Part shown: positions 5,194 through 38,379 of the stretch, one piece after another | Position numbering within the stretch: position 1 is the first letter of the stretch | Layout of the letters: each line of letters begins with the position of its first letter | Source: a virus | Direction: 5' to 3' (one strand) | IMG/VR virus record: IMGVR_UViG_3300043570_003418 | Coordinates: 1 to 42,878 of that record | DNA length: 42,878 bases | The notes under the pieces: model-generated | The model's database searches: none | Seen by the model: only the letters and a program-made list of their open reading frames with translations | What the model was told of the DNA's origin: nothing | Translations under genes and position numbers: made by a program

Positions 5194-5620
5194 ACTTATT
5201 GGCAAACCCATTGAAGAAATTCGTATAGGCTTTACGGCATCAACATTTGATCTCTTTCATGCAGGTCATACCGTTATGCTTATGGAAGCAAAACAATTGT
5301 GTGACTATCTAATTGTAGGATTATTGGTTGATCCCACAAAGGATCGTGCTGATACAAAGAACGCACCAGTTCAAAGTGTATTTGAGCGATACCTACAAGT
5401 ATCAGCATGCAAATATGTGGACGAAATTATTCCCTTTGAAACCGAAAAGGATCTGGAAGATATGATTCTTACAATCAATCCTGATGTGCGCATTGTTGGC
5501 GAGGAATACCAAGGTACCAATCACACCGGAAAAGACCTTTGCCCAATCCATTACAACAAAAGAAGACACAGTTTCTCTACAAGTGAATTGAGATCGCGCG
5601 TCATTGCAAAGAAAAATTAA
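5165..5620 (+). CDS. Cytidylyltransferase (TagD/RfaE-type nucleotidyltransferase)
   Basis: 151 residues. GFTASTFDLFHAGHTVMLME (22-41) contains the HxGH nucleotide-binding motif (32-35), followed by IVGLLVDPTKD and a C-terminal FSTSELRSRV that matches the (I/S)STS..R signature of the family. These enzymes join a phosphorylated sugar, sugar alcohol or alcohol to CMP or AMP. The start lies inside the end of the kinase gene (29-base overlap), so the two are translationally coupled. Its likely role is to make the activated sugar used by the glycosyltransferase at 6658. Confidence 0.8.
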   Translation: MLLDKQSLAKLIGKPIEEIRIGFTASTFDLFHAGHTVMLMEAKQLCDYLIVGLLVDPTKDRADTKNAPVQSVFERYLQVSACKYVDEIIPFETEKDLEDMILTINPDVRIVGEEYQGTNHTGKDLCPIHYNKRRHSFSTSELRSRVIAKKN

Positions 5621-5636
5621 CCACATATATAACTCT

Positions 5637-6656: not shown

Positions 6657-6657
6657 T

Positions 6658-7932: not shown

Positions 7933-7940
7933 ATCAATTT

Positions 7941-9212
7941 ATGGAGAACGCACAAAAGAAATACACATACGCATCAATCGTACCGCTTATTGGCGGTGAA
8001 TCACTTGGAGTCATGGAAGCACTAGATGGACAACTTCCAGAATACGTATTATCATATAGTCCCTTTGCAAGCAATGATGATCACTACATTCAATACATCC
8101 GCAACACAAAAGGATGGACTGGTGACTATATTCACCTTGACAAACAGCCTGATTATGTACCAGAATCGGTTGATGTTGTAAATTCCACCTGCCCTTGTGC
8201 TGGTTTGAGCAGCCTTAGCACTGCAAGCAGTGCAGATAGTGCAGTTAATGAATGGTTGTATACCACTGCTGAATATGTACTTGATAAAGTAGGTCCTAAA
8301 GTATTTTGGGGCGAGAATGCTCCACGTTTATACAGCAACATGGGTAAAAAAGTCGCAGACCGTTTGTTTGCTATCGGCGAAAAGTATGGGTATAGCTTAA
8401 ACTTGTATTATACTGAAAGCCGCCTTCACGGCCTGTCTCAAAAGCGCGGCCGCACATTCTACTTCTTTACTAAGAGTACATCTGCTCCGTTATTTAGTTG
8501 GTTTAATGTTCCTGGAGAACCCATTGAAAACATCTTTAATATGGCATATGCTGATGGTGATCCAATGAATATCTCTTGCAATGAAGACGATCCCAATACC
8601 AATGGTTGGGCTGCATACGCCATGCACAAGACTGGTACTAAAGATATTAAAGAACTATATGACACCCTGGATGATACACAGAATCTTATTGTCTGGGCCG
8701 ACGGCGGCTTAGGTGATAATCTTACAGTTGTATCGGAATGGATGGATGCGAATGGTTATACTAAAACTGCAGGACGTGCTCGGGATATGGCCGCTAAACG
8801 TGCAAAAGGTATGGGTTACTGGGCGCATGGCATTACTATGGTCAAAGGTATTATTCCTAGTCTGATTGGAGCATTGCCATTCTGGATGATTAATCCATTT
8901 ACTCAAAGCTTTCCAACTGTACGTGACTGTCTCCGTGTTATGAAGATGCCTGAAGACTTTAATCTTGCATCATTGCACCCGCTTAAAACCAAGATTAATC
9001 ACATCTGCCAAAATGTACCTGTAAGTACAGCTCGTGATATGATGCTTAATGTAGTAAAGTATCTTGATGGCGATGTTACTTGGAGTGAAAGTAACTATAC
9101 CAAACAAAGCAATAAGAATAAGACGGTTGAATATCCTACACGTGTGCTGCTAAATAATTCTCATGAACTTGATGAATTTTTTAGTTTACATTCCAAGAAA
9201 AACCTGTTATAA
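7941..9212 (+). CDS. DNA cytosine-C5 methyltransferase-like protein
   Basis: 423 residues. Motifs in order: ASIVPLIGGESLGVMEAL (11-28, motif I AdoMet site), NSTCPCAGLSSL (81-92, motif IV with catalytic Cys86 in PCAGLS), GENAPRL (124-130, motif VI) and GLSQKRGRTFYFF (164-176, motif VIII QxRxR). The C-terminal third has no clear target-recognition signature. Other C5 enzymes methylate cytosine at the carbon that dCMP hydroxymethylase has already occupied in this phage, so its job is unclear. It could modify unmodified host or incoming DNA, or act on an altered base. It ends with a coding region that contains the early promoter of uvsX. Confidence 0.7.
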   Translation: MENAQKKYTYASIVPLIGGESLGVMEALDGQLPEYVLSYSPFASNDDHYIQYIRNTKGWTGDYIHLDKQPDYVPESVDVVNSTCPCAGLSSLSTASSADSAVNEWLYTTAEYVLDKVGPKVFWGENAPRLYSNMGKKVADRLFAIGEKYGYSLNLYYTESRLHGLSQKRGRTFYFFTKSTSAPLFSWFNVPGEPIENIFNMAYADGDPMNISCNEDDPNTNGWAAYAMHKTGTKDIKELYDTLDDTQNLIVWADGGLGDNLTVVSEWMDANGYTKTAGRARDMAAKRAKGMGYWAHGITMVKGIIPSLIGALPFWMINPFTQSFPTVRDCLRVMKMPEDFNLASLHPLKTKINHICQNVPVSTARDMMLNVVKYLDGDVTWSESNYTKQSNKNKTVEYPTRVLLNNSHELDEFFSLHSKKNLL

Positions 9213-9234: not shown

Positions 9235-10149
9235 ATGTCATCTGTACTAGAAAAACTAAAAAAGAATTGCCGAATTAAAGAAGCCGACGTCTTGGCTGAC
9301 AGCGATTTTTATGCTGAAAAAGACATCACCTCCACAAGTGTACCAATGGTCAATGTCGCATTAAGTGGCAGTATTGACGGTGGATTGACCAGCGGCCTTA
9401 CCGTTCTTGCTGGTCCATCAAAGCACTTTAAGACTAGCTTTGCATTGCTTATGGCCGGTGCATATCTTAAGAAACATAAAGATGCTTGTCTTATGTTTTA
9501 TGATAGTGAATTTGGTAGTCCTCAGCAATACTTTGAAAGCTTTGGTATTGATACCAACCGAGTATTGCATATTCCCATTAAAAATATTGAAGAACTCAAG
9601 TTTGATATTGTGAATCAACTTGAGCAGATGGAGCGCAAGGATAAAGTAATTATTGTTATTGATAGTGTTGGTAACCTTGCGTCCAAAAAAGAATTGGAAG
9701 ATGCAATGAATGAAAAGAGCGTGGCCGACATGACTCGTGCTAAAGCGCTTAAAGGATTGTTCCGTATGGTTACGCCATACCTTACAATGAAAAACATTTG
9801 CTTGCTTGCAATCAACCATACCTATCAAGAAATTGGATTGTTCCCAAAAGCTATTGTTAGTGGAGGTTGTGTTGCTGCGGGAACTCTTATTACTCTGCCT
9901 GATGGAACAACTAAACCGGTTGAAGACTTTATTGCTGGTGATAATGTTCAAACATTAGATGGCCCTAAAGAAGTTACTGCTGTTTGGAATCCAGACACGC
10001 TCGATGAAGGCGAACCGGAATGTTATGAAGTTACATTTGAGGATGGCCACACCATTGTTTGCAGTGATAAACACAAATTCATGATTGATGACCTTTGGGT
10101 AGAAGCAAAAGACCTAACGGTTGGACAAGATTGTAAAGTATTGATCTGA
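9235..10149 (+). CDS. uvsX: UvsX recombinase N-terminal part fused to the N half of a split intein
   Basis: 304 residues. Residues 1-211 are the N-terminal part of a T4-type UvsX/RecA: GPSKHFKT (60-67, Walker A), FYDSEFG (88-94), VIIVIDSVGNLAS (138-150, Walker B), MTRAKALKGLFR and AINHTY. At residue 212 the recombinase breaks off after VSGG and an intein starts: CVAAGTLITLPDG (block A, Cys212), then YEVTFEDGHTIVCSDKHKFM (block B with its Thr/Asp-His region). The chain ends in CKVLI and a stop at 10147-10149, giving a 93-residue N-intein. T4 UvsX continues ...GGTG.MYSAD at this point, and exactly that follows the C-intein at 11184. The full recombinase would form by trans-splicing. Confidence 0.93.
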   Translation: MSSVLEKLKKNCRIKEADVLADSDFYAEKDITSTSVPMVNVALSGSIDGGLTSGLTVLAGPSKHFKTSFALLMAGAYLKKHKDACLMFYDSEFGSPQQYFESFGIDTNRVLHIPIKNIEELKFDIVNQLEQMERKDKVIIVIDSVGNLASKKELEDAMNEKSVADMTRAKALKGLFRMVTPYLTMKNICLLAINHTYQEIGLFPKAIVSGGCVAAGTLITLPDGTTKPVEDFIAGDNVQTLDGPKEVTAVWNPDTLDEGEPECYEVTFEDGHTIVCSDKHKFMIDDLWVEAKDLTVGQDCKVLI

Positions 10150-10152
10150 TTC

Positions 10153-10200
10153 TTAAGTTCATCGGTTGTATAAATAAACCCATACAACCGATGAACTTAG
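10153..10200 (+). promoter_or_regulatory. Late promoter inside a long hairpin masking the endonuclease start
   Basis: An 18 bp perfect inverted repeat (10154-10171 with 10182-10199, plus one G-T pair) encloses a ten-base loop. TATAAATA at 10169-10176 is a T4-type late promoter, and the right arm contains the start codon ATG 10191. Read-through RNA from the early uvsX promoter would fold and hide the start. RNA starting at the late promoter would lack the left arm and leave the start free. This is the logic described for T4 homing endonuclease genes such as I-TevI. Confidence 0.85.
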
Positions 10201-11069
10201 TATATAAAATAACATTTAGTAAACGCAAAGTTGCTGGTATTTTACCATACCTTTATATTGGATCAAAGTCAAATTGCTCTTTTAAGAATGGCATAATATA
10301 TGACGGCCGTAATAAACCTTATTATGGATCTTCAACATGGGAAAACTATAAAGAGATGGTGCAATCTGATATATGTGAAATAGAAATTTTATATTCGTCT
10401 GAAGATTATGAAAAAGTTCTTCAGCGTGAAGCGGAAGAACAAATAAAAGTATCTGCAGTGTCATCACCGGAATATTTTAATAAATCTATAGCAATGGAAA
10501 ATACATTTCATAATCCAAATTATGCTACATATAAAAACAAAGAAACTGGAAAGATTGTTAGACTTTCCAGAGATGACTCATCAGTATTAAATGGTGAATA
10601 TGTTGGTGTGACGTTTGGCAATAAATTATCAGAAGAAACCAAACAAAAAATCATTCGTTCTGGTAAAGATAACGGTTTTTATGGAAAAACCCATACTGAA
10701 GAAACTAGAAAAATTATTGGAGATAAAAATAAAGGCAATAAAAGAAAGCCTGAAGATATTGAATGGTTTAGAGAAAATGTAGCTAAAATAAACCGCACTC
10801 CAGAATGGAAAGCTAAAATAGGTAGATCTGATCTTGTAACATTAAAAAATGTTATCACTGGTGAAAATATCCGTGTCAGTAAACATGAAGCAATACAGCT
10901 AGATTCCGATGAATGGATTAACCCATATCGTTATAAAGTAATTACTCAAGGTCTTCAAATGCAAACATGCAAGCATTGCAATAGAGATATAGACACATCA
11001 AATTTTAAAAGATGGCATGGCGATAAATGTAAAAAAAGACCTTTACAAACAGAAGAAAATATATTATAA
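10191..11069 (+). CDS. GIY-YIG homing endonuclease between the two uvsX halves
   Basis: 292 residues. The N-terminal YKITFSKRK...YLYIGSKS and PYYGSS (about residues 5-50) form a GIY-YIG nuclease module with an insert. Residues about 145-190 hold NUMOD3-like repeats (LSEETKQKI, GFYGKTHTEETRKII), and the C terminus has a zinc finger CKHCNRD...RWHGDKC. It is a separate gene, not an in-frame intein domain. Its codon use is more AT-rich than the flanking uvsX parts. The site it sits in, between the N- and C-intein genes, matches the fractured-gene arrangement reported for phage split inteins. Its last codons overlap the early promoter of the downstream uvsX part. Confidence 0.88.
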   Translation: MNLVYKITFSKRKVAGILPYLYIGSKSNCSFKNGIIYDGRNKPYYGSSTWENYKEMVQSDICEIEILYSSEDYEKVLQREAEEQIKVSAVSSPEYFNKSIAMENTFHNPNYATYKNKETGKIVRLSRDDSSVLNGEYVGVTFGNKLSEETKQKIIRSGKDNGFYGKTHTEETRKIIGDKNKGNKRKPEDIEWFRENVAKINRTPEWKAKIGRSDLVTLKNVITGENIRVSKHEAIQLDSDEWINPYRYKVITQGLQMQTCKHCNRDIDTSNFKRWHGDKCKKRPLQTEENIL

Positions 11070-11070
11070 T
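11042..11070 (+). promoter_or_regulatory. Early promoter of the uvsX C-terminal half
   Basis: TTTACA 11042-11047, 17 bp spacer, TATAAT 11065-11070, overlapping the endonuclease stop codon. The ATG is at 11079, so the mRNA leader would be about two bases. This promoter allows the C half to be made at the same time as the N half. Confidence 0.87.
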
Positions 11071-11078
11071 ATAACATA

Positions 11079-11657
11079 ATGAAAATTAAAGAAATTAAAT
11101 CAATAGGGCGGCAAAAAGTATATGACCTTAGCGTTAAAGATGCTGAACACTATATTCTTAAGAATGGTGTTGTGACGCATAACACAGGCATCATGTATAG
11201 TGCGGACAATGTTTGGATTATTGGTCGCCAACAAGATAAAGATGGTACTGAAATTCAAGGTTATCACTTTGTAATCAATGTAGAAAAGAGTCGCTTTGTT
11301 AAAGAAAAAAGCAAAATTCCAATCAGCGTAAGCTGGGAAGGTGGCGTTCAAAAATGGAGCGGCCTATTGGATATTGCTATTCTTGGTGGCTATGTTCGCA
11401 AGCCAAAGAATGGTTGGTACCAAGCATGGGACATTGCAAAGGATGTTGAGTTGACTGGCAACCTGCGTGCTGCTCAAACCATGACTAAAGAATTCTGGGA
11501 GACTGTATTTAAGAATACTGACTTTGCGGAATATCTCAAAAACAAGTATACCATCGGCCTGCGCGACATGATGAATGACGTTGAAGTTAATCTTGATCGT
11601 GTTCCTGAGAGTGCAATCACCTTTGAAGAATCGCCTGAAGAACAAACAGATGACTGA
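11079..11657 (+). CDS. uvsX: C half of the split intein fused to the UvsX C-terminal part
   Basis: 192 residues. Residues 1-35 are a C-intein: MKIKEIKSIGRQKVYDLSVK, then DAEHYILKNGVVTHN (blocks F and G) ending in the splicing Asn35. Thr36 is the +1 extein residue. From there TGIMYSADNVWIIGRQQ, GYHFVINVEKSRFVKEKSKI and KPKNGWYQ match T4 UvsX directly downstream of its GG site. The C-terminal tail is acidic (EESPEEQTDD), as in T4 UvsX. Together with the part at 9235 this restores a recombinase of about 368 residues. It catalyses strand exchange with UvsY-type mediators and the gp41 helicase encoded nearby. Confidence 0.93.
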   Translation: MKIKEIKSIGRQKVYDLSVKDAEHYILKNGVVTHNTGIMYSADNVWIIGRQQDKDGTEIQGYHFVINVEKSRFVKEKSKIPISVSWEGGVQKWSGLLDIAILGGYVRKPKNGWYQAWDIAKDVELTGNLRAAQTMTKEFWETVFKNTDFAEYLKNKYTIGLRDMMNDVEVNLDRVPESAITFEESPEEQTDD

Positions 11658-13348: not shown

Positions 13349-13356
13349 TATAAATA
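13349..13356 (+). promoter_or_regulatory. Late promoter
   Basis: TATAAATA, six bases before the ATG at 13363. It opens the block of tagged late genes. Confidence 0.8.
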
Positions 13357-13362
13357 ACATAT

Positions 13363-14895
13363 ATGTCAAACGTAGTAAGTTTTAAAAGTTATTTGGCTGA
13401 GGCCATGTCAACCTCGTCAGTCGATAAATCAGCATTCCTAATTGCTAAATATCTAAAGAAGAAAACTGGTGTAATCCTGTTTCGTTATCCTGGCCTTGAA
13501 GCATTTAAGAACGCTGATGGAGCAGGCTTTGGTTTGCGTTTCTATTCTAGCAAAAAGAATATGTCATTGCGTTTCAACTGGAAAAGCACTAGTCAAGCTG
13601 GCTATTCAAATCTTGCAAGCATTGATTTTTGGAATGGTAAAACACCAGCACCTTTCCATATTGAATTTGATCAGACTGTAAGCGTTGTTAAAGTATTGCC
13701 ACTCATTGCAGATGCACTTAAAAACAACAGCATTGAGCTGGGCAAGATTCGTACCATGCCTGATGATGTGCCACTCAACGAAGATTTTAATTATGATTTT
13801 TTAGCTGAAGCCGCTAGCCCAGTAGATATTCTTAATGATATCTTGGATATGGTTACCGAACCTTCCTTCGCAAAAGGCAAGGTATATACCAAACACAAGA
13901 GTGCTGGTCAGAAGATTTTTGATCAGCTTGAAACCTCATACCCATCGCTGTTTGTCAAGACTGGCACAAAGTTCACATGGGCTGGTAAAGCAAAGGACAT
14001 CGAAAAGATTCGCAAAGAACAAGGTGCGCTGCTTGATGCAACTGGCAGTGTTGAAGCAAAGGTAACGCGTGGCTCTGCTAAAGAAAAGTATGTTATATCT
14101 CAAGAGATCAACGCTCTTGAAAGCGATCAAGAGCGCCTCACCTTTGAAGCTCAATTGGTCGACCTAGAGAATCTAGTTAAAATGACTGTTAGCGGTGCTG
14201 CCAATGCATTGTTTGTCAGTGGTAAAGGTGGCGTTGGTAAAACACATACAACCGAACAAATCCTTAGTAACCTTGGATTGCGCGATGGCGCTGGTTACTT
14301 TAAAAATACTGGTAGTGCGAGCGCTGCTGGTTTATACTCATTGCTGTTCCGCTATAAGGATAAGATCATCTTCTTTGATGATTCCGACGATGCATTGGGT
14401 GATCAAGAAGCACGCAACTTGTTGAAGGCCGCTACCGATACCAAGAAGATTCGTAAGTTGGTGTGGAACAAAATGGGTAAAAATGTTGCTGATCCTGATG
14501 ACATGACCGATGAAGAAATTCTTGATGCAGGCTTGATTCCGCGTTATTTTGAATTTACAGGTAAAGTTATTTTTATTAGTAACCTTCCATTAAACAAACT
14601 TGATCCTGATGGCGCGCTGCGTACTCGTGCGTTCATTATCAATATTGATCCAACTGAAGCTGAAATTTATGATTTCATGGATAAAATTGTTGGTAAGATT
14701 ACTCTTGAGGATGGTCTTCAGCTGGATGATAAAGCACGTAAGCATGTTGTTGACCTGTTGCGCAAAGGCAAGAGCAAACAAAGTGCTAACCTTCGTAAAT
14801 TATCACGCGGCCTAAACATGAGTGCTGGTGCTATTGCAAGTGGCGTTGAAATTAGTGATGCCGAACTGTCACGAATGATTGAATCATATGCTTGA
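13363..14895 (+). CDS. AAA-type ATPase with N-terminal capsid-targeting-like tag
   Basis: 510 residues. The start MSNVVSFKSYLAEAMS carries the FKxYLxE/A tag seen in many neighbours. A second NYDFLAEAAS site lies near residue 140. The ATPase core is in the C-terminal half: VSGKGGVGKTHTTEQIL (about 285-301, Walker A), KIIFFDDSDDAL (Walker B) and KVIFISNLPLNKLDP, with a downstream arginine-rich segment (sensor/Arg finger region). The ATPase core is clearly AAA; what it acts on is unknown. The tag and late promoter suggest a virion-packaged enzyme or a head-assembly factor. Confidence 0.7.
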   Translation: MSNVVSFKSYLAEAMSTSSVDKSAFLIAKYLKKKTGVILFRYPGLEAFKNADGAGFGLRFYSSKKNMSLRFNWKSTSQAGYSNLASIDFWNGKTPAPFHIEFDQTVSVVKVLPLIADALKNNSIELGKIRTMPDDVPLNEDFNYDFLAEAASPVDILNDILDMVTEPSFAKGKVYTKHKSAGQKIFDQLETSYPSLFVKTGTKFTWAGKAKDIEKIRKEQGALLDATGSVEAKVTRGSAKEKYVISQEINALESDQERLTFEAQLVDLENLVKMTVSGAANALFVSGKGGVGKTHTTEQILSNLGLRDGAGYFKNTGSASAAGLYSLLFRYKDKIIFFDDSDDALGDQEARNLLKAATDTKKIRKLVWNKMGKNVADPDDMTDEEILDAGLIPRYFEFTGKVIFISNLPLNKLDPDGALRTRAFIINIDPTEAEIYDFMDKIVGKITLEDGLQLDDKARKHVVDLLRKGKSKQSANLRKLSRGLNMSAGAIASGVEISDAELSRMIESYA

Positions 14896-15375: not shown

Positions 15376-16290
15376 ATGTCAAACTTAGCCGGAAAAGAAT
15401 TATATAAGTACGATTGGCGTGCCGAAGTTTTTCTTAAAAAACTTAAGAACAGTGAAGCGTTTGAATTGGAGAATGGCAAAAAAGTGGTATTCATACCAGC
15501 TAAAGACGTTATCAACATCATTACCAAAAGACTGCCCACAAGCGCTATACGATTACTTGATGGCAAAGGCAATACATATTCGCTAAAGGATATTGCAAAA
15601 AATTCAGAATTTGGTGGGCGTGGTAGCGGCGGCGGAACTGTTAAAGAGGACCGCGAATTGGCTTCTTTGATAGAACAAATTGATGCTGCAAAAAGCGACA
15701 TTGCCGCTGCTACAATCAAAATAAAAGTTGGCAATAAAACTTATGATGTGTATGGTGCAGCTAGTACTGCAGGAACTCCTAAGAGCGACTTTCACTTATT
15801 GGATATTGACGGCAAAGAGATTGTTTGGCTATCACATAAAGATGGCAATAAAGCAAAAGACTTTCAACAATGGGGTGGTATAAGTTCAGCAAAAGAACCA
15901 ACAATTTTTGCTCACAAAGAAACTCAAAAATTTATAGCCGATCTTAAAAGAGATTATCCTGATGGTTTGCCACCTGCTACTACACTATATCGTAAAATTA
16001 AAGATGACAAGTTGAAAATGCTTAGTGTATATGGCAATAAGTACGGTGGCACACTTGGTCAACAAAATGTTAGCATGCTGTTGCAAGGACCAGTTAAACT
16101 CGTCAAGAAGGGTAAGCATTATGAATTGTCTGCCAATCACGTTCATTATAATGGTGATAGCGTAGATGGCGATGGATATGATCCGGTTCTTATGGCTATA
16201 TACAAAGGTGATCGTAGTGATGCTGGCGTAAAAGGCACACGCATTGTAATCAGTCCAGTAGGTGGACGCAAAGGAATTGAATATAAATGA
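15376..16290 (+). CDS. Late protein with possible PD-(D/E)XK-like domain
   Basis: 304 residues. The N-terminal 75 residues (KELYKYDWRAEVFLKKLKNS, then SEFGGRGSGG) are shared with the next gene and form a common module. The second part has KSDFHLLDIDGKEIVWLSHK, then GNKAKDFQQWGGIS, an arrangement (D, then E-x-x-W-x-S-x-K) reminiscent of a PD-(D/E)XK nuclease core. Nuclease function is an inference. The typical FKxYLxE tag is missing at this start. It overlaps the next gene by ATGA at 16287-16290. Confidence 0.5.
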   Translation: MSNLAGKELYKYDWRAEVFLKKLKNSEAFELENGKKVVFIPAKDVINIITKRLPTSAIRLLDGKGNTYSLKDIAKNSEFGGRGSGGGTVKEDRELASLIEQIDAAKSDIAAATIKIKVGNKTYDVYGAASTAGTPKSDFHLLDIDGKEIVWLSHKDGNKAKDFQQWGGISSAKEPTIFAHKETQKFIADLKRDYPDGLPPATTLYRKIKDDKLKMLSVYGNKYGGTLGQQNVSMLLQGPVKLVKKGKHYELSANHVHYNGDSVDGDGYDPVLMAIYKGDRSDAGVKGTRIVISPVGGRKGIEYK

Positions 16291-17594
16291 TATCATTTAA
16301 ACAACACTATTTGACCGAAGGTGCAAACCTAGCACCAGCCGAACTATACAAATATGATTGGCGTGTTGACATGTTTCTTGACAAATACAAGAACAGTCAA
16401 CCATTAACATTAGCGGCGGGTGGCGAAGTGGTATTGCGTTATGACGCAAAGACTGCAGCTGACGTTAAAGCTAAAAATAACCCAGGCAAGATTGTTTTCC
16501 ATTCTGCTAAAGATGATGCAACATACGCTCTTAAAGACTTTGCTAAAACCAAAGAATTTGGTGGAGGAGGCGGCAAAGGTGCTGGTGCAGATGTTACACG
16601 TACTACAGAAAGTGCACAAGCCGTATATGCAGCTGCCCGATGGGCTGGCAGCAAAAACTATACCGCTATTGATTTGGAACGCGCATATAACAGCTGCAAA
16701 GTAGATGAACCATTTGAAAACATATTGAATGGTTTATCACCAGCATGGCGTGATAGCTGTATTCTTGGTGCTGAAGCATTGCATAAAAAATACAGCAAAA
16801 AGAATTATACTTTCCATCGTGGCAGCGACTGGGTAGAGTCACTTGAAAAAACATTCAAGAAACTCAACAGTGCCGAAAAGATATTTTTGAATGTCAACAA
16901 ATGGAGTCCAGCTGACATCTATATGGTATCGCCAGCTGGTGCTGCGGTTAAACTTGCGGCTGCTACAAATATTATAGAATTGAATGGATTGCTTCTTGAG
17001 GCAATGCGCGCTGGTGATATAGTTGGTGTATCTCTAAAGCTGCTCAAAGGAGGTGTCAAGATGTCAACTTACAATGCTGGTGATGAAAAGCATACCATTG
17101 AATTTGACAAGTTTACAACTGGCAATAAAGGATTCTTTAGCGGTAAGGATATCTATATGTATTTCTCACAGAATGGCAAAATACAATTCCGTACCTTTCC
17201 TGAAACTTTCCAAGGCGAAATCAAAGGGAAGAATGCTAATCAAGGTAAACTTAGCTATGGTCCAATTCAAACTGTATTGCGTCACCTTCGATTGCCGCAA
17301 CTGATTGACATCAAAACTTTACGTAAAGCATTGGCTGAAAGCGATGAGAAAACGTATAAAGAGTTTTACGAGAATTATACACGCTATTCGATGGACTCTT
17401 CAAAGTTGCAATACAACGCATTCGTTGAAGAATGTAAAGCCAAAGGTGTTAGCTGGGCCTTTAGCAAATTCCTAGGATGTCAGCTTATAGATATAGTCAA
17501 GAGCAGTCATCGCGAAGATGATTTTATTACTTCATGCATTCAATATGCAAGCAGCAGTTCAGACTTGAGCGCACCTTTTATCAAATTAGAATAA
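16287..17594 (+). CDS. Tagged late protein sharing a module with the gene upstream
   Basis: 435 residues. It starts with the tag MISFKQHYLTE/G. The next 80 residues (AELYKYDWRVDMFLDKYKNS, then KEFGGGGGKG) match the N-terminal module of the protein at 15376. The remaining 320 residues contain LNVNKWSPADIYMVSP and GDIVGVSLKLLKGG, patterns I recall from uncharacterised proteins of T4-like marine phages. No enzyme is recognised. The tag predicts cleavage after TE and packaging into the prohead. Confidence 0.55.
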   Translation: MISFKQHYLTEGANLAPAELYKYDWRVDMFLDKYKNSQPLTLAAGGEVVLRYDAKTAADVKAKNNPGKIVFHSAKDDATYALKDFAKTKEFGGGGGKGAGADVTRTTESAQAVYAAARWAGSKNYTAIDLERAYNSCKVDEPFENILNGLSPAWRDSCILGAEALHKKYSKKNYTFHRGSDWVESLEKTFKKLNSAEKIFLNVNKWSPADIYMVSPAGAAVKLAAATNIIELNGLLLEAMRAGDIVGVSLKLLKGGVKMSTYNAGDEKHTIEFDKFTTGNKGFFSGKDIYMYFSQNGKIQFRTFPETFQGEIKGKNANQGKLSYGPIQTVLRHLRLPQLIDIKTLRKALAESDEKTYKEFYENYTRYSMDSSKLQYNAFVEECKAKGVSWAFSKFLGCQLIDIVKSSHREDDFITSCIQYASSSSDLSAPFIKLE

Positions 17595-17680: not shown

Positions 17681-18314
17681 TACCAACGTAATTAACAATA
17701 AGAAATATATTGGAATGTGCACACGCGAGGCACCTAATTATTTAGGTAGCGGTACATTACTAAAACAGAGCATTAAAAAATACGGTAAAGAAAATTTTAA
17801 AAGACAAATACTGCAAGAATGTTTTACATTTGAAGAATTATGCAAGGCTGAAGATTATTGGATTATTAAATATAATGCCGTTGAATCTAAAGACTTTTAT
17901 AATTTAAATAAAGGTGGAATGGGTGGTAATTCTGAATTATTAAAATCATACTGGTCAACCCTATCGGAATCAGAACGAAAAACTAATAGAAATTGGAATG
18001 GCCATTTTTGCAATTCAAAGCTATCTCGTGACGTATATGACGATCCAAAATGGCGTGATAAAGTATCAAAAAGCGTAACTGAATCATGGGCAAATTTAAC
18101 AGCTGAAGAATCCATTGCTAGACGAGAAGCAATTAAAAAAGGTATTGCTGAAAAACGTGACTTTAGCGGAGATAAAAATCCAATGGCTGGTAGATCTATT
18201 GTAAAAGAAAAGAATTTAAAATGGTATACTGACGGAACATTAAGCATATATGTTACCGAAGGAACTCAACCGGATGGCTTTTATAAAGGAAGAAAATTTA
18301 AAAATAAACAATGA
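17664..18314 (+). CDS. GIY-YIG homing endonuclease (Seg-like)
   Basis: 216 residues. FIYLTTNVINNKKYIG followed by YLGSG is the GIY-YIG core (about 2-32), then helical residues with KYGKENFKRQIL and EDYWIIKYNA complete the nuclease domain. The C-terminal part has GDKNPMAGRSIVKEKN, a NUMOD-type DNA-binding motif. It has its own late promoter and hairpin and is more AT-rich than its neighbours. Its end overlaps the next start by ATGA (18311-18314). It interrupts a tagged late gene at 17596. Confidence 0.85.
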   Translation: MFIYLTTNVINNKKYIGMCTREAPNYLGSGTLLKQSIKKYGKENFKRQILQECFTFEELCKAEDYWIIKYNAVESKDFYNLNKGGMGGNSELLKSYWSTLSESERKTNRNWNGHFCNSKLSRDVYDDPKWRDKVSKSVTESWANLTAEESIARREAIKKGIAEKRDFSGDKNPMAGRSIVKEKNLKWYTDGTLSIYVTEGTQPDGFYKGRKFKNKQ

Positions 18315-19549
18315 AATCATTTAAAGAATATCTGTCTGAATCCACCACACCTGGTAAAAATGTTCATCTTATGCATCTTGAGGATGCTGTATTATACGGA
18401 GGTGTTGAAGGAACGCGGGATGCAATCAATGCACTGCGCAGCCTGCGTGATATGTTGGCTGGCAACAGCAATGGAGCAGTTGATGTTACTGTCAAATGGG
18501 ATGGTGCTCCGGCCGTGTTCTGTGGCGTTGATCCAAGTGACGGACAATTCTTCGTAGCTAAGAAAGGTATCTTCAATAAGAACCCAAAGGTATATAAAAG
18601 TATAGCTGATGTAAAAGCAGACACAAGTGGCGAACTTGCTGACAAACTGAGTGTTGCTTACGTCGAACTAAAGAAACTCGGTATTAAGAATGTTATACAA
18701 GGCGACCTGATGTTTACCAAAGGTGACCTAAAAAAGGTTAGTATTGAAGGAGAAAAGTATGTTGTGTTTCAACCCAATACCATTGCATATGCTGTCCCAG
18801 CTGAAAGCGAATTGGCTGATACGCTAAAGAAGGCAAATCTTGGCATTGTATTTCACACATCATACAATGGCAGTAGTTTTGAGAGTATGACTGCTAGTTA
18901 TGGCGTTGACACACGATCTCTTAAAAAGTTGCCTAGTGTATGGTATCAAGATGCAACCATCCATGACCTGAGCGGTAAGGCTACACTGACAGCAGCTGAT
19001 ACGGCACAAGTTACGGCTGCACTATCTGAAGCAGGTAAGATCTTTCAAAAGATTAGCAGCACCACTCTAAAAGCTATCGAACAGGATGCTGAATTTGCAA
19101 CTACTCTTGAAACATACAACAACACATACGTTCGCAAAGGAGAAACCGTAACCGATACAAAGGCTCATGTAAATGGACTTATTGCATGGGCAACCAAAAA
19201 GTTTGATGCTGATGTAGCAAGCAAGAAAAGTGAAAAAGGTCAGGCTGCGGCAAGCGCGCGCAAAGATGCTTACCTAGCATTTTTCAATGCTTCCAATAAA
19301 GCAAATCTTGACTTGATGTATCAGTTACAAAATGCTATTGTCAAGGCCAAGTTGATTATTATACAAAAGCTTGACAGCCTTAAAAAGATAAATACCTTTG
19401 TCAAAACAAGTGATGGATTCCGCGTAACCAGTCAAGAAGGCTTTGTTGCTATTGACCATCTTAAAGGCGGCGCAGTCAAACTGGTCGACCGCATGACATT
19501 TAGTAAAAACAATTTCGATCCAAACATAATCAAAGGCTGGCAAAAATGA
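18311..19549 (+). CDS. Tagged ligase-like nucleotidyltransferase-fold protein
   Basis: 412 residues beginning MKSFKEYLSE/S, the capsid-targeting-like tag. VTVKWDGAPAVFCG (about 59-72) matches motif I (KxDG) of ATP-dependent nucleic acid ligases, GEKYVVFQPNTIAY could be motif III, SQEGFVAI motif IV and GGAVKLVDRMTF motif V. The protein pattern resembles a DUF family of T4-like phages that I believe is numbered DUF6267. Lysine-adenylation activity is plausible but unproven. A packaged nucleic-acid ligase-like enzyme would be unusual. Confidence 0.6.
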   Translation: MKSFKEYLSESTTPGKNVHLMHLEDAVLYGGVEGTRDAINALRSLRDMLAGNSNGAVDVTVKWDGAPAVFCGVDPSDGQFFVAKKGIFNKNPKVYKSIADVKADTSGELADKLSVAYVELKKLGIKNVIQGDLMFTKGDLKKVSIEGEKYVVFQPNTIAYAVPAESELADTLKKANLGIVFHTSYNGSSFESMTASYGVDTRSLKKLPSVWYQDATIHDLSGKATLTAADTAQVTAALSEAGKIFQKISSTTLKAIEQDAEFATTLETYNNTYVRKGETVTDTKAHVNGLIAWATKKFDADVASKKSEKGQAAASARKDAYLAFFNASNKANLDLMYQLQNAIVKAKLIIIQKLDSLKKINTFVKTSDGFRVTSQEGFVAIDHLKGGAVKLVDRMTFSKNNFDPNIIKGWQK

Positions 19550-20217
19550 ATATACAAGACGACCCATTGGTAAATATAGCACGAGCTATACTTGAAGGCA
19601 CAGCCCATAAGTTTGGTGATATGGTAACAGCATCTAGCATCAATGCAACTGAGCTGCGGTATGAAACGCAAAAGATCGACCACAAGTATGGTAACTTTGC
19701 TGAATACATTGACCCTACTGAAGGCGCTGGTGGAGGTACAGATGGTATGTTTATTGACAAACAATGGGAGAAATTCTATAAAGCAAACGACCTGCGTTTT
19801 ACGGTATTTAGTTATATGCTTGATCTCTTTACTCCCAAGAGCAAAACACTACTTGCTCTTTCAAAACAGATGGTGGAATTGCCGGCATATCAAAGCAGCC
19901 CAGAAAAATATGCATTGATTGATGAAGTTAAAGAAACATACACTCATGTAGGTGTGGTACGTCCTACCGAAAAGTATCGTTTTATAGTTGATGAAGCAAC
20001 CTGGAAAGCATTGCCGAGTGAAGTGATTGGCAATACGTCATATGACTATAGCTTCCATGCTGGTGAAGGCACCGTTGACAGTTTCCTGATGGCAATTGGT
20101 GGCAGCGAAGCAGATGTTAAAAGCAAACTTAAAAAGGGCCTGAGTAAAGTCAAAGCAGAATATATTGGCAATGCGATGGAACTTAAATATGCACAGAAAG
20201 GTGCAGTAGGACGCTAA
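19546..20217 (+). CDS. Late protein, unknown function, possible tag
   Basis: 223 residues. The N-terminal DDPLVNIARAILEGTAH contains an I-L-E/G site compatible with the prohead protease consensus, though the tag differs from the FKxYLxE form. A glycine-rich turn (EGAGGGTDG) lies near residue 62. No known domain. It overlaps the previous gene by ATGA (19546-19549). Confidence 0.45.
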   Translation: MNIQDDPLVNIARAILEGTAHKFGDMVTASSINATELRYETQKIDHKYGNFAEYIDPTEGAGGGTDGMFIDKQWEKFYKANDLRFTVFSYMLDLFTPKSKTLLALSKQMVELPAYQSSPEKYALIDEVKETYTHVGVVRPTEKYRFIVDEATWKALPSEVIGNTSYDYSFHAGEGTVDSFLMAIGGSEADVKSKLKKGLSKVKAEYIGNAMELKYAQKGAVGR

Positions 20218-20468: not shown

Positions 20469-21305
20469 ATGATCAAGTCCTTTAAGTCATTTACTGAAGA
20501 ACGCACTAATGGCGTAGTAGTTACCTTTGGGCGATACAATCCACCAACTATTGGCCATGAAAAATTATTTGATGCGGTCTCAAAAATTGCAAAAGGTAAA
20601 AACTTTCTAATCTATTCATCTCAAAGCCATGACCTTAAAAATCCATTGGCCTATGAAGAAAAGATCAAGTTTCTTCGCAAAATGTTTCCACAATATGGAC
20701 GCAGCATTATATCCGATAAAGGTGTAAAGAATGTATTTGATGTTGCGGTCAAAGCATATGAAGCTGGATATACCAAACTGACACTCGTTGTTGGCAGTGA
20801 CCGTATTGATGAATTCACCAAGCTGCTAAACAAATATGATGCTGTTAAAGCTGGCCATGGTTACTATACATTCCGTGATGGCATTGAAGTAAAGAGTGCT
20901 GGAGAACGCGATCCTGATAGCGAAGGCGTAAGCGGCATGAGCGCTAGCAAAATGCGAGCAGCCGCTGCAGACAATGACCTTGAAGCTTTTGCAAAAGGCG
21001 TGCCCAAAACATTTGGTGAAGTTAAAGAATTGTTTAATGCAGTGCGAGTTGGATTGGGACTTAAAGAAAGCCACAACTTTCGCAAGCATGTACAATTTGT
21101 ACCCATTTCAGAAAATCGCGAGCGCTATATTGCTGGCGAGATTTTCAACAAAGGCGATGTAATATACAGCGTCAAAACCGGAGAAGCTGAACTGATGGTA
21201 TTGGAAAAGAAACCAAACTATGTGGTGTGTAAGAACCTACATACACTAGATGAAAGTAAAATTTTTGTTGCGGATCTCCGCCTAACCTTAGAACAAACAA
21301 TATGA
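20469..21305 (+). CDS. Tagged nucleotidyltransferase (NMN adenylyltransferase/cytidylyltransferase type)
   Basis: 278 residues. The tag is MIKSFKSFTE. VVTFGRYNPPTIGHEKLFDA (about 18-37) has the TxxHxGH-like nucleotide-binding site, LVVGSDRIDEF follows, and GVSGMSASKMRAAA holds the SxSxxR signature of the HIGH-family nucleotidyltransferases. Relatives include NadM/NadR and phage proteins of this type. The C-terminal 80 residues form a separate small beta domain (GDVIYSVKTGEAELMVLEKK). If packaged, it could act on NAD precursors early in infection. A weak late promoter (TATAAATC, 20456-20463) lies upstream. Confidence 0.72.
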   Translation: MIKSFKSFTEERTNGVVVTFGRYNPPTIGHEKLFDAVSKIAKGKNFLIYSSQSHDLKNPLAYEEKIKFLRKMFPQYGRSIISDKGVKNVFDVAVKAYEAGYTKLTLVVGSDRIDEFTKLLNKYDAVKAGHGYYTFRDGIEVKSAGERDPDSEGVSGMSASKMRAAAADNDLEAFAKGVPKTFGEVKELFNAVRVGLGLKESHNFRKHVQFVPISENRERYIAGEIFNKGDVIYSVKTGEAELMVLEKKPNYVVCKNLHTLDESKIFVADLRLTLEQTI

Positions 21306-28693: not shown

Positions 28694-30355
28694 ATGAGTA
28701 AAGAAGACATTTATTGGTTGAATAAAGATAGCCGCAAGTTCCTAAGCAGAGGCTATGTACTTGAGGAAGCTGGAGAAACTGCGGAAAGCCGCATGCGTGA
28801 TATTGCTGTTGCGGCTGAAACACGATTAGGAATCTCTGGATTTGCTGACAAGTTTGAAAGCTATCTACACAAAGGATTCTATTCACTAAGCAGCCCAATT
28901 TGGAGTAATAGTGGTCGTGAGCGTGGATTGCCTATCAGTTGTTTTGGTACATACATTGATGATACCCTTGAAGAGATTGCTGGTTATAAAATCTCTGAAA
29001 TCACAATGATGACAAAAAATGGAGGAGGTACTAGTGCATACTTTGGAGCATTGCGCGGCCGCGGCACTCCTATTAGTACTGGTGGAACAAGCACCGGCGC
29101 GGTTCACTTCATGGAGCTTTATGACAAACTGATGAGTGTGGTATCTCAAGGTAATGTTCGTCGTGGCAGCTTTGCGGCATACCTGCCAATTGACCATCCT
29201 GACATTGAAGAATTCTTAAAAATCAAAGGAGAAGGCCACACCATTCAGGACATGAGTATTGGCGTTACGGTTAGTGACGCATGGATGAAGCGCATGATTG
29301 ATGGTGATAAAGATGCACGCAAGACATGGGGATTAGTCATCAAGAAGCGTTTTGAAAGTGGTTATCCATACCTGTTCTTTAGTGATACCGCAAACAATGG
29401 CGCGCCTCAAGTATACAAGGACAAAGGTAAAACAATTTTTGCTAGCAACCTTTGCAATGAAATTTACCTAAGCACAAGTAAAGATGAAAGCTTTGTGTGT
29501 AACCTATCTTCCATCAACCTTGAGCGTTGGGATGACCTAAAAGATACTGACGCAATTGAAACATTGGTATATTTCCTTGATAGTGTTATGACTGAATTTA
29601 TTGACAAGACCGAAGGAATGGCGCATATGGATGCTCCGCGTCGTTTTGCAATCAATCAGCGCGCATTGGGTGTAGGTGTTCTTGGCTGGCACAGTTACCT
29701 GCAAAGTAAAGCCTTGCCATTTGAAAGTATGGAAGCCAAGATGGAAAATATTGGTATCTTTAAGACGCTGCGCGAAAAGTGTGACTCTGCTACAGAGCAA
29801 CTTGCGGCCTTGTATGGCGAACCTGAATTGCTAACTGGCTATGGCCGACGCAACGCAACAACCATTGCAATTGCACCAACCACAAGTTCATCATTTATTC
29901 TAGGCCAAGTAAGCCCAAGCATTGAACCTCTTAACAGTAACTATTTTGTTAAGGATCTTGCAAAGGGTAAATTTACATATAAGAATCCATACCTAACAAA
30001 GTTGCTTAAGAGTAAAGGTTTGGACAACAGCGAAACTTGGCGTGATATTCTTATTCATGGCGGAAGTATTCAACATCTAACAACACTAACGGATGAAGAA
30101 AAAGCAGTATATAAAACCTTTGGTGAAATTGCTCAAAAGGAAATTGTTATACAGGCCGCTCAAAGACAACGATATATAGATCAAGGGCAAAGTCTCAATC
30201 TAATGATTGCGCCTAATGCCAAACCAAAAGAAGTAAACGAACTAATGATTTTTGCATGGGAAAGTGGAGTCAAAGGATTGTATTATCAACGTAGCGCAAA
30301 TCCTGCTCAAGAGTTGGCGCGCAGTATCATGACATGTTCAACCTGTGAAGCATAA
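28694..30355 (+). CDS. nrdA: Class I ribonucleotide reductase large subunit
   Basis: 553 residues, shorter than E. coli NrdA (761) because the N-terminal ATP-cone is missing. Key residues: Cys83 in LPISCFGTYI, Asn252, Cys254 and Glu256 in SNLCNEI, Cys269 in VCNLSSINL, the Tyr pair in KGLYYQRS, and the C-terminal CSTCEA redox pair. It reduces ribonucleoside diphosphates with NrdB. Loss of the ATP-cone means no dATP shut-off of the usual kind, as in several phage enzymes. It is intact, with no intein. The last base of its stop codon is the first base of the next ATG. Confidence 0.94.
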   Translation: MSKEDIYWLNKDSRKFLSRGYVLEEAGETAESRMRDIAVAAETRLGISGFADKFESYLHKGFYSLSSPIWSNSGRERGLPISCFGTYIDDTLEEIAGYKISEITMMTKNGGGTSAYFGALRGRGTPISTGGTSTGAVHFMELYDKLMSVVSQGNVRRGSFAAYLPIDHPDIEEFLKIKGEGHTIQDMSIGVTVSDAWMKRMIDGDKDARKTWGLVIKKRFESGYPYLFFSDTANNGAPQVYKDKGKTIFASNLCNEIYLSTSKDESFVCNLSSINLERWDDLKDTDAIETLVYFLDSVMTEFIDKTEGMAHMDAPRRFAINQRALGVGVLGWHSYLQSKALPFESMEAKMENIGIFKTLREKCDSATEQLAALYGEPELLTGYGRRNATTIAIAPTTSSSFILGQVSPSIEPLNSNYFVKDLAKGKFTYKNPYLTKLLKSKGLDNSETWRDILIHGGSIQHLTTLTDEEKAVYKTFGEIAQKEIVIQAAQRQRYIDQGQSLNLMIAPNAKPKEVNELMIFAWESGVKGLYYQRSANPAQELARSIMTCSTCEA

Positions 30356-35390: not shown

Positions 35391-35971
35391 CGCCTGTAGC
35401 ACCCAAAACAAAAACCACACTCGTCTTGACTGCAGGCTTTCAGGCCTGCGGATTCTTTAGTGCGCGCAGTGCAGTTCGCAATATGATTGTGGGCGGCGTT
35501 AAAGCATATGACTTGTATGGCAATATTCATGATTGGGATAGCTGGATTGCAAATGATGAATATCTTGTGCCAGATCATCCAGCGCTGCGCAGCGTTGACA
35601 GCTGTTGGGCCGTGCCTACAATTGTGGTGATCCCAGGATACTTTGGTACTTTTGGCAAGAGACGCAATCGTGTCATCAACTTGAGACAGCTATATTATGT
35701 GTATGATGGAGAATGTCAATACTGTCTCAAAAAGATTCCTTTTACGGCTGCAACACGAGATCATGTATTGCCACGCAGCAGAGGTGGAAGCAATGATGAT
35801 AGCAACATTGTATTGAGTTGCAAAAAATGCAACAGCAAAAAGAGCAACAAGTTTCCATATCAAAACATCAAAGGCAGCAGTGTAAAACCAAAGATTCTTA
35901 ATGATGTGGAGTTTGCTGCACTTAGCGAAAAAGTAGAGATTCGAGAAGAGTGGAAAACCTTCCTTGTATAA
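35387..35971 (+). CDS. HNH endonuclease (T4-type resident gene)
   Basis: 194 residues from GTG 35387, preceded by a strong GGAGG. The C-terminal domain has CQYCLKKI (about 105-112), RDHVLPRSRGGSNDDSNIVL and CKKCNSKKSNK, the zinc-supported HNH fold. The N-terminal 100 residues resemble those of HNH proteins in many T4-like phages, which are standalone and conserved. Its codon use matches its neighbours, unlike the homing endonucleases. Its function may be in packaging or late DNA processing. Confidence 0.8.
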   Translation: MTPVAPKTKTTLVLTAGFQACGFFSARSAVRNMIVGGVKAYDLYGNIHDWDSWIANDEYLVPDHPALRSVDSCWAVPTIVVIPGYFGTFGKRRNRVINLRQLYYVYDGECQYCLKKIPFTAATRDHVLPRSRGGSNDDSNIVLSCKKCNSKKSNKFPYQNIKGSSVKPKILNDVEFAALSEKVEIREEWKTFLV

Positions 35972-35974
35972 ATA
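35967..35974 (+). promoter_or_regulatory. Late promoter
   Basis: TATAAATA overlapping the HNH gene stop, seven bases before ATG 35982. Confidence 0.8.
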
Positions 35975-35981
35975 AGGTATA

Positions 35982-36284
35982 ATGAATATCACTACAGCAT
36001 ATCGTCAAATGGCTCAAGCTTCATATGACCAAGCAATTGAAGCCAACCACGCTCTGGTTGAAGCCGCATCTTTTTATCGACTTCCAGGGAATGTTGTAGG
36101 CAATGAATTGTATGTTGTTGCTCGTGATCTCAAAAGCTTTGCGGACAGTCAAATGAATGGCGATGATTTTGATGTAAAATCATTTGCGGCTATTATTGAT
36201 AAACTCAACAAAATTAAAAAGGAAGCAAAGGCGTTCAACTCAGAAGATGAGGTTCCAGTTTCATATGTGTATAAGAAAAAATAA
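35982..36284 (+). CDS. Late hypothetical protein
   Basis: 100 residues. The start MNITTAYRQMAQAS resembles the AYRxML tag of the four following genes but lacks the LxE cleavage site. The middle is helical (ALVEAASFYRLPG...VVARDLKSFADSQ). No known family. It begins a late cluster with its own TATAAATA. Confidence 0.45.
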   Translation: MNITTAYRQMAQASYDQAIEANHALVEAASFYRLPGNVVGNELYVVARDLKSFADSQMNGDDFDVKSFAAIIDKLNKIKKEAKAFNSEDEVPVSYVYKKK

Positions 36285-36285
36285 T

Positions 36286-36293
36286 TATAAATA
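36286..36293 (+). promoter_or_regulatory. Late promoter
   Basis: TATAAATA four bases before ATG 36298. Confidence 0.8.
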
Positions 36294-36297
36294 AGGT

Positions 36298-36708
36298 ATG
36301 AATCCAAATATTTCAATCCCACCAACAGCAGCCGACGCATATCGTGCGATGTTAGATGAACAAACATACGCTTCTCTTGAAGAAGTTACTGTTGAAAGTA
36401 CTCTTCAACTCAACGAAGCTGCAATTAAAGCACAAATCATTGCAGCAGGTTATGTATACTTTCCAGATGACGACCAACTATATAAGGTTAGCCCATACAA
36501 GCTTATTGGCAACTCTGGCAAACTAGCTACACTTGGTGTACAAAAATGGTATAGCGTAAATGTTGCAACTGGTGAGGATCTTGCTGATGCTGGACTGGCT
36601 GAAGTGGATGTTGACAATAAAGGAAATTATTTTGTTGTAAATTCTAATAACAGTAAACTAACTGCACCAGCTCTTATTTCAAGCGAGCCCAATAAAATTT
36701 ACTTATAA
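36298..36708 (+). CDS. Tagged late protein, first of four tandem tag-sharing genes
   Basis: 136 residues. The first 21 residues (ISIPPTAADAYRAMLDEQTY as core) are nearly identical to those of the next two genes and related to the fourth, with a cleavage-like MLDE/Q site. The rest is unrelated to the others: YVYFPDDDQLYKVSPYKLIG and a beta-rich tail. A constant start with a variable body is the layout of T4 internal head proteins, which carry a common N-terminal peptide removed by the prohead protease. Confidence 0.6.
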   Translation: MNPNISIPPTAADAYRAMLDEQTYASLEEVTVESTLQLNEAAIKAQIIAAGYVYFPDDDQLYKVSPYKLIGNSGKLATLGVQKWYSVNVATGEDLADAGLAEVDVDNKGNYFVVNSNNSKLTAPALISSEPNKIYL

Positions 36709-36711
36709 ATA
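36704..36711 (+). promoter_or_regulatory. Late promoter
   Basis: TATAAATA overlapping the stop of the first tagged gene, eleven bases before ATG 36723. Confidence 0.75.
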
Positions 36712-36722
36712 AACTACAATCT

Positions 36723-37289
36723 ATGAATAACCACATCTCAATCCCACCAACAGCAGCTGATGCGTATCGTGCAATGTTAGCCGAACAAACATACGCTTCA
36801 CGTGAAGAAGCTGCAGCTGAAAATGTATCTCAACTTGATGAAGCAAAGATAGTCACATTGACTGTTCCATTTCCTGGGTCAAACGAAGATAAAATTATGG
36901 CTCAGGCTAAAACTCTCGGTAAGACTCATGGCTTTACTGTTCTTGGTGGTGAATACAACCGTTATGACAAAACTGTTGATATTGAACTTAAAGGCGATCT
37001 TAGCAAGTTAGCTAAATTTGTTAATATGTGGATGCGTACTGACGACAGTGACGAAGAAATTTTAAATGACTATAGCGAATCATATGATTCCTCTATAGCT
37101 GAAGAAATCGAAGCACCTGATTATGGGTTTGCATCAACTCCTCCTAAAGTTAAGCTTAAGCAATTGAAGGCAGTCATTAAAAAAATTCCTGACAATAAAG
37201 TTGATTACATTGTACATGTTCTTGCGCGCCTTGCAAACTTTGAACAAATCAAAGAAATTATGAAGGGTATGAGCGTAAAGAGTAACTAA
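36723..37289 (+). CDS. Tagged late protein, second of the tandem family
   Basis: 188 residues: tag ISIPPTAADAYRAMLAE/Q, then a core VTLTVPFPGSNEDKIMAQAK...GFTVLGGEYNRYD...LKGDLSKLAKFVNMWM (about 40-105) shared with the third and fourth genes, then an acidic DDSDEEILNDYSES stretch and a basic helical C terminus. The core looks like a small alpha-beta domain. Role unknown; the tag suggests head packaging. Confidence 0.65.
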   Translation: MNNHISIPPTAADAYRAMLAEQTYASREEAAAENVSQLDEAKIVTLTVPFPGSNEDKIMAQAKTLGKTHGFTVLGGEYNRYDKTVDIELKGDLSKLAKFVNMWMRTDDSDEEILNDYSESYDSSIAEEIEAPDYGFASTPPKVKLKQLKAVIKKIPDNKVDYIVHVLARLANFEQIKEIMKGMSVKSN

Positions 37290-37295
37290 TAATTT

Positions 37296-38033
37296 ATGAA
37301 CACCTACATTTCAATCCCACCAACAGCAGCTGACGCATACCGTGCAATGTTAGCCGAACAAACATACTCATCACTTGAAGACGTTTCGCTAAACGAAGGA
37401 AAGATGGTTACTCTAAGTATTCCATTTCCTGGCACAAATGAAAAAAAAGTTCTTGCTCAAGCTAAAGAGATTGGCTCTAAGAATGGCTTCACCGTTCATG
37501 GTGGAGAATATGACCGCTATGATGAAGCAGTATATGTCACAATCAAAGGTGACAGCAGCAAGTTAGCTAAATGGGTCAACAAGTGGATGCGCACTGACGA
37601 CAGCGAAGAAGAAATTGTTAATGATTATAGCGAAAGCGTAGATGCAACTGAATCGGCTTTAAATGAAGCTGAAGAAGATGAGTTTTCGCATTCAAAAGAT
37701 AAGAAGCAAAACTACGCTAAATTTTTAGCTGCAAACGCAAAACGAGTTGGCAAGCCAATGATTGACGGCGGTCTAAAAGTTGACCATTCAAAGGCGGCTA
37801 ATGTAAACGGACAACCAGTTAATGACGTAATTTATGTTGGAGATGGTTGCCTTACTTTTATTTCTAGTGGTAAAAAAGTATTCATGCAGCTGAATCCTGG
37901 TAATCTTAATACATCCGATGGTACAGTCCCTTGGTCGGTATGGAAAAGCTATAGTGGAAATGCTTATATCTCTGCATCCGAGAGCGAATTTAAAGAGATT
38001 GCAAAGGCACTAACTGTTGCTGCAAAAGTATAA
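37296..38033 (+). CDS. Tagged late protein, third of the tandem family
   Basis: 245 residues: the same tag (ISIPPTAADAYRAMLAE/Q), the same core domain (VTLSIPFPGTNEKKVLAQAK...WVNKWMRTDDSEEE), and an added C-terminal domain of about 120 residues (NYAKFLAANAKRVGKPMIDG...VIYVGDGCLTFISSGKKVFM). It begins six bases after the second gene, without its own TATAAATA. Confidence 0.65.
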   Translation: MNTYISIPPTAADAYRAMLAEQTYSSLEDVSLNEGKMVTLSIPFPGTNEKKVLAQAKEIGSKNGFTVHGGEYDRYDEAVYVTIKGDSSKLAKWVNKWMRTDDSEEEIVNDYSESVDATESALNEAEEDEFSHSKDKKQNYAKFLAANAKRVGKPMIDGGLKVDHSKAANVNGQPVNDVIYVGDGCLTFISSGKKVFMQLNPGNLNTSDGTVPWSVWKSYSGNAYISASESEFKEIAKALTVAAKV

Positions 38034-38037
38034 AAAT

Positions 38038-38379
38038 ATGAACAATAATATCTCAACTGCAGCCGATGCATATCGTACTATGCTAACAGAAGGAAAACCG
38101 GTTACATTGACTGTTCCTTTTCTTGGCTATGCGCATGAAGAGAAAGGTATTATTGCCAAAGCAAAAAAGCTTGGTACAGCCAACGGCTTTAAATTTGTTA
38201 GCAGTCGGTATAACCGCTTTGATAAAGCCGCGTATGTAACATTCAAAGGTGACAGCCCTAAGTTGCAAAAATGGTTAGACAAGTGGAAACACACCGAGGA
38301 AGGCGCATCTGTTCGTCATCTTGGCACTATGTGGGATTGGACCGCAGGCGGAGAAAGTGATGTAAGAGATCAAATTTAA
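38038..38379 (+). CDS. Tagged late protein, fourth of the tandem family
   Basis: 113 residues from ATG 38038. The tag is shortened: NNISTAADAYRTMLTE/G. The core PVTLTVPFLGYAHEEKGIIA...GFKFVSSRYNRFDKAAYVTF...LQKWLDKWKHTEE is a divergent copy of that in the second and third proteins. A TATAAAAA sequence six bases before the ATG is a one-mismatch late promoter. Confidence 0.6.
   Translation: MNNNISTAADAYRTMLTEGKPVTLTVPFLGYAHEEKGIIAKAKKLGTANGFKFVSSRYNRFDKAAYVTFKGDSPKLQKWLDKWKHTEEGASVRHLGTMWDWTAGGESDVRDQI

Follow-up and report, generated by a model that had tools for sequence, protein, structure and literature searches.

Four tandem genes with a shared N-terminal tag, found in a fragment of a T4-like phage, probably encode internal head protein precursors that deliver injected anti-defence domains; packaging, cleavage, injection and inhibition are each steps that we infer. 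The fragment analysed, hereafter the window, is the whole stretch of 42,878 bases, in which tag genes 1–4 lie at 36298–38379 as tandem intact open reading frames (ORFs) and form part of a larger swapping family. In the proposed pathway, a leader with the core AYRxMLxE would dock the precursors in the prohead core, and a gp21-type (S77) protease would cut after [LI]xE, both at the leader and at every boundary between modules. The freed small domains would stay with the packaged DNA, be injected along with it and block immediate host defences. Since neither the leader nor the cut sites belong to the bodies, these could be exchanged, fused in series and moved between two leader types. In T4, the internal proteins Ip1, Ip2 and Ip3 are injected, and each inhibits a different GmrSD, with the leader alone in common (PMC12373910); IPIII deprived of its leader functions in the cytoplasm (PMC9391042). 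A sequence-only reading of the window had likened the tag proteins to T4 IPI–IPIII, and this comparison has been largely supported by the residues of the capsid-targeting sequence (CTS), by an LxE|G capsid site and a protease in relatives, and by the apparent homology of one module, C, to IPI.

Source phage and gene array

Contig G001 (73.7 kb) is 99.98% identical to the window over 42.1 kb and extends 31.6 kb upstream, and a sister strain (G002/G004), with about 85–93% identity to the window in aligned blocks, adds approximately 63 kb downstream. Conserved window proteins match those of cyanophages, of Pelagibacter and Methylophilales phages, and of the complete phage C48C1, which is filed under Kyanoviridae. 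At 4135–9212, a C-5 cytosine methylase-like gene stands beside glycosyltransferase-like, epimerase and cytidylyltransferase genes, which may together form a cassette for modifying DNA or surface sugars; because the methylase-like gene adjoins glycosyltransferase-like and epimerase genes, modified cytosines or DNA in the window phage are a plausible guess. Judging from the translations, a RecA/UvsX-like gene at 9235–11657 is apparently split by an insertion that resembles an intein and includes a homing-endonuclease-like ORF.

The tag array lies near the tRNA cluster, and its genes, together with the features described within them, lie on the (+) strand. As the sequence-only reading had proposed, the four tandem genes have a common start, namely the leader ISIPPTAADAYRAMLxE or a shortened form, ISTAADAYRTMLTE; its layout of the bodies, with domain B in genes 2–4, another body (A) in gene 1 and an extra C-terminal domain (C) in gene 3, was borne out as well. 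Gene 1 (P0001; 36298..36708; 136 aa) joins the leader ISIPPTAADAYRAMLDE (36310..36360, placed, as in genes 2 and 3, by the leader alignment) to module A, with LNE|AAIK at residue 40 (36409–36417). In gene 2 (P0002; 36723..37289; 188 aa), the leader ISIPPTAADAYRAMLAE (36735..36785) is followed by LDE|AKIV at residue 40 (36834–36842), module B, IAE|E at residue 127 and a tail module. Gene 3 (P0003; 37296..38033; 245 aa) encodes a two-module precursor in the order leader, LNE|GKMV, B, LNE|AEED, C. Its leader, again ISIPPTAADAYRAMLAE (37308..37358), is separated from module B (37398..37640) by a predicted cleavage site, LNE|G (37389..37397), of the same form as the capsid-propeptide FLNE|G discussed below, and a second predicted site, LNE|A (37659..37667), recognized by comparison of module junctions, precedes module C (37668..38030). 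Gene 4 (P0004; 38038..38379; 113 aa), for which the ATG at 38038 was preferred over the listed TTG at 38017, has the shortened leader ISTAADAYRTMLTE fused straight to module B (MLTE|GKPV), with a single tripeptide, LTE|G (38083..38091), as both leader site and module-junction site. Directly before these genes, gene 0 (35982..36284) encodes a body of its own behind the variant leader NITTAYRQMAQ, with LVE|A at residue 27; the targeting residues Y and M are kept in this leader, and the MLAE site is absent.

The T4-type late promoter box, TATAAATA, was counted 15 times, compared with 4.2 occurrences expected. Copies lie directly 5' of gene 0 (35967..35974, 7 nt from the ATG), gene 1 (36286..36293, 4 nt) and gene 2 (36704..36711, 11 nt), in support of the earlier description of the array as late genes; no exact TATAAATA box was found before genes 3 and 4. 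The spacing from TATAAATA to the start codon is 4–15 nt window-wide (median about 7), as at 13349, 17651, 20218, 23716, 35967, 36286, 36704, 39023 and 40077, compared with 13–32 nt in a stretch of T4 and mostly 20–37 nt in C48C1. Since the boxes stand only 4–15 nt from start codons, the late messages of the window phage may be leaderless or nearly so.

Leaders, cut sites and module exchange

In an alignment of seven leader copies from the window and the sister strain, 12 columns are invariant, including T-A-A-x-A-Y-R-x-M-L-x-E. Over 12 codons in ten tag copies, pS is 0.45 and pN 0.056, which points to selection on the leader peptide; the same values rule out a DNA-level relic, DNA-level identity or recent gene conversion. 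Four residues of the T4 CTS have been mapped experimentally, Y4, F7, I8 and E10, with residues 4 and 7 serving targeting and residues 8 and 10 serving processing (reviewed in PMC9026906). When the leader core AYRAMLAE is aligned with TYQEFIAE of T4 IPII and IPIII, all four mapped residues match in kind, and the core AYRxMLxE fits a variant of the T4 CTS. The 265 proteins of two phages contain 11 matches to a CTS-like pattern, [YF][KRQ]x[FYM][LI]xE, 10 of these within the first 22 residues; the count is descriptive, since R and M were allowed in a broadened pattern after the tags had been seen.

The second leader type, NITTAYRxM, which is found in gene 0 and its counterparts, keeps the targeting positions and has lost the processing positions. 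A search of GTDB genome contigs for relatives of the leader confirmed none, and phage C48C1 yielded no equivalent of the TAADAYR leader, its only type being SFKxxLxE. This T4-like leader, common to the window and C48C1, appears in the same or a close form at 13363–14895, 16287–17594, 18311–19549 and 20469–21305, its carriers being AAA ATPase-like, phrog_1462, DUF6267 and cytidyltransferase proteins; large proteins may thus be packaged too. A possible third N-terminal class, carried by late genes and ending in (I/V)xxAxxxLE|G, was seen at 19546–20217, in L139 (6441–6860) and in L026 (9137–9397; G002 29137–29397). The sister strain additionally has a 47-residue ORF (L145 4741; G002 18687) that is nearly leader alone, perhaps the remnant of a lost body.

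The contigs of the window phage stop short of the head-gene region; a PF03420 search of them, like its controls, gave no hit, and the head genes were taken instead from relatives whose UvsW is 88–96% identical. One close relative, L040, encodes a portal, a Peptidase_S77 protease (PF03420, 1.3e-41; phrog_207, 1.6e-78), a scaffold and a major capsid protein. Among the relatives, the major-capsid propeptide ends in FLNE|G, FLNE|N, YLAE|G, YLSE|G or FIAE|G, with cut positions deduced from the motif and from alignment to gp23. The prohead protease of T4, gp21, cleaves after L/I-x-E (PMC9026906), and the predicted junctions of the tag proteins share the form of the capsid site of their own phage group, with protease and capsid as read in the relatives.

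Relatives of the tag genes were collected using the leaders and module C as queries. The window and these relatives together supply 21 module junctions, and the motif [LI]xE is present in each (next residue A in 14, G in 5, otherwise Q or V); the list was assembled by eye from homologous modules, and its entries are mutually non-independent. Next to the bodies of the window, the junctions take the forms LNE|A, LDE|A, LNE|G and LTE|G. A cut after MLAE, as previously proposed, stands as one of two likely sites, because the module-edge LxE is constant at all junctions; the latter is the constant predicted site, and MLAE is missing in the ITTAYRQMAQ variant.

Modules recur behind different leaders. 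In gene 1 of the window, module A stands behind the TAADAYR leader, and in L006, L139 and L150 behind a NITTAYRQMAQ or ITTAYR leader; module F follows ITTAYR in L121 and L123, ITDAYR in L139 and a SAADAYR leader in L150; a leader of the gene 0 type accordingly carries module A or F in relatives. Module B, situated behind the leader in genes 2–4, is present in L006 as two copies joined by INE|G, and modules E and G occur in relatives only. In L120, a leaderless ORF (4560–4877) has a C-terminus that by eye resembles module G of L006 (7523–8218). The comparison of body diversity among relatives agreed with what had been anticipated for anti-defence genes, in that bodies vary fast and different bodies stand behind the same leaders. 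It is about an even chance that the prohead-protease sites serve as joints, in which case multi-domain anti-defence precursors behind two interchangeable leaders would be cut in the head and would gain additions by recombination at LxE.

Pfam and PHROG searches with modules A, B, E, F and G returned matches at chance level and no known inhibitor. Searches at BLAST level among annotated phages gave no match for gene 2 or for module C of L121, and Foldseek gave no significant PDB match for the model of gene 3, module B included. This AlphaFold model is of low confidence overall; within it, module B is predicted to adopt a beta-alpha-beta-beta-alpha fold (pLDDT about 70–80).

Module C and T4 IPI

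Profile comparison identifies module C as a distant homologue of the mature form of T4 IPI. It matches phrog_4363 weakly among PHROGs (E 0.013 and 0.0042), and T4 IPI is a member of this family (1.8e-48). With the leaders removed, hhalign of module C against mature IPI yielded a probability of 94–95% (score 44–46), and 350 column shuffles used as controls gave at most 4.3% (score at most 18.8). Gene 3 was the best of 255 ORFs in the hhalign comparison with IPI, the next unrelated ORF reaching 11%. When a mature-IPI profile was run against 702 ORFs, the top three were L121, gene 3 and L139 (E 1e-4 to 6e-3); in the converse run against 1252 ORFs, a module-C profile placed four IPI proteins on top (Salicola SCTP-2, T4, KM16 and dhabil).

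Identity between module C and IPI is about 30% over 47 columns. Common to both are the pattern N-x-x-R-x-G-K-P-M-I ... G-x-x-[IV]-x-x-x-[IV]-Y-x-G-D-G, comparable helix regions at the C-terminus and a position after an LxE site. Unlike T4 IPI, module C has a 12-residue insertion and a longer middle, and it is the second domain of its precursor in the window (gene 3), standing directly behind the leader in relatives (L121, L122, L139 and L150). AlphaFold predicted a helix-strands-helix order for module C, in a model too poor (pLDDT 40) to bear on the relationship with T4 IPI (structure 2JUB).

T4 IPI is injected and inhibits the Type IV restriction enzyme GmrSD (GmrS/GmrD). By analogy, module C probably inhibits a GmrSD-like restriction enzyme of the modification-dependent kind (Type IV), and it is the best candidate for this role in the array. 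For other variants of such enzymes, or for other early defences, the modules besides C would be the candidates.

Alternative roles and known systems

The tag proteins might instead be packaged and cut, but serve mainly in head assembly, for example in core or size control (cf. gp67/gp68 and the partial role of IPIII), with bodies that vary because little of their sequence matters. Conserved leaders and sites combined with variable bodies would suit such a role, and T4 IPIII mutants show reduced head assembly (PMC9026906). We nevertheless consider it fairly unlikely, given that the modules are kept as distinct folded domains between relatives and exchanged whole, and that IPI, to which module C appears related, is known for anti-restriction rather than assembly. 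We likewise give only a small chance to the idea that the leader packages the bodies and that these, once injected, act as host-takeover factors and not as restriction inhibitors. The model here would be Alt, a modifier of RNA polymerase that is packaged by the same route in T4 (PMC9026906), and most modules are without known relatives; module C, however, resembles IPI and not Alt, and rapid turnover with several non-homologous bodies fits anti-defence arrays (PMC12373910).

Strong constraint at the protein level with synonymous change left free, matches to the mapped CTS residues, and an LxE at 21 of 21 junctions in the form of the capsid cleavage site all argue against a common N-terminus that is a mere relic of duplication or recombination, such as a promoter-plus-start cassette, with no targeting function. 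Such a relic seems highly improbable, although the cassette does take in the late promoter box and the start, and the sister strain does possess a 47-residue tag almost without a body (L145 4741).

The preferred reading, that of injected anti-defence proteins, places the tag array close to T4 IPI, IPII and IPIII, which are likewise late genes combining a short conserved N-terminal leader, an L/I-x-E site and unrelated bodies. Gene order is also alike, with ipII and ipIII in tandem in T4 and T4 ipI close to a tRNA cluster, as is the tag array. The tag proteins differ from the T4 proteins in their longer, distinct leader (ISIPPTAADAYRAMLxE or NITTAYRxM versus MKTxxEF), in precursors that hold several modules separated by LxE, and in modules that switch leader between relatives. 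The Dar proteins (DarA, Hdf and others) of P1, a phage of another kind, are directed at Type I enzymes. Compared by description alone, as another precedent, they resemble the proposed products in being head-packaged and in shielding injected DNA from restriction (PMC12810830). The internal or ejection proteins of phiKZ and SPN3US offer another parallel, comprising many cargo proteins with removable N-terminal propeptides, redundant x-x-E sites and gp21-like proteases; their protease motif, by contrast, is S/A-x-E, and the available portion of the source describes no shared leader or leader/module swapping of the tag-array kind (PMC9026906).

The principle is thus already known from T-even phages; what is new is the presence of two leader types outside Tevenvirinae and of an IPI relative in the window lineage, along with serial modules separated by head-protease sites and modules swapped between leaders. 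The use of internal proteins, which is known at the functional level from enterobacterial T-even phages, would thereby be extended to uncultivated Kyanoviridae-like phages, with the IPI relative as anchor. AYRxM leaders followed by LxE may provide a sequence rule for finding more injected anti-defence proteins, and modules A, B, C, E, F and G are candidates against modification-dependent restriction enzymes. If the reading is true, a single signal would load several effectors in a new way, by means of multi-domain precursors that the head protease cuts. Among the IPI relatives, that of Salicola phage SCTP-2 (440 kb; gene 68; L132 1438–1716) is annotated as hypothetical and has a leader-like start, MRKYMDLIKE.
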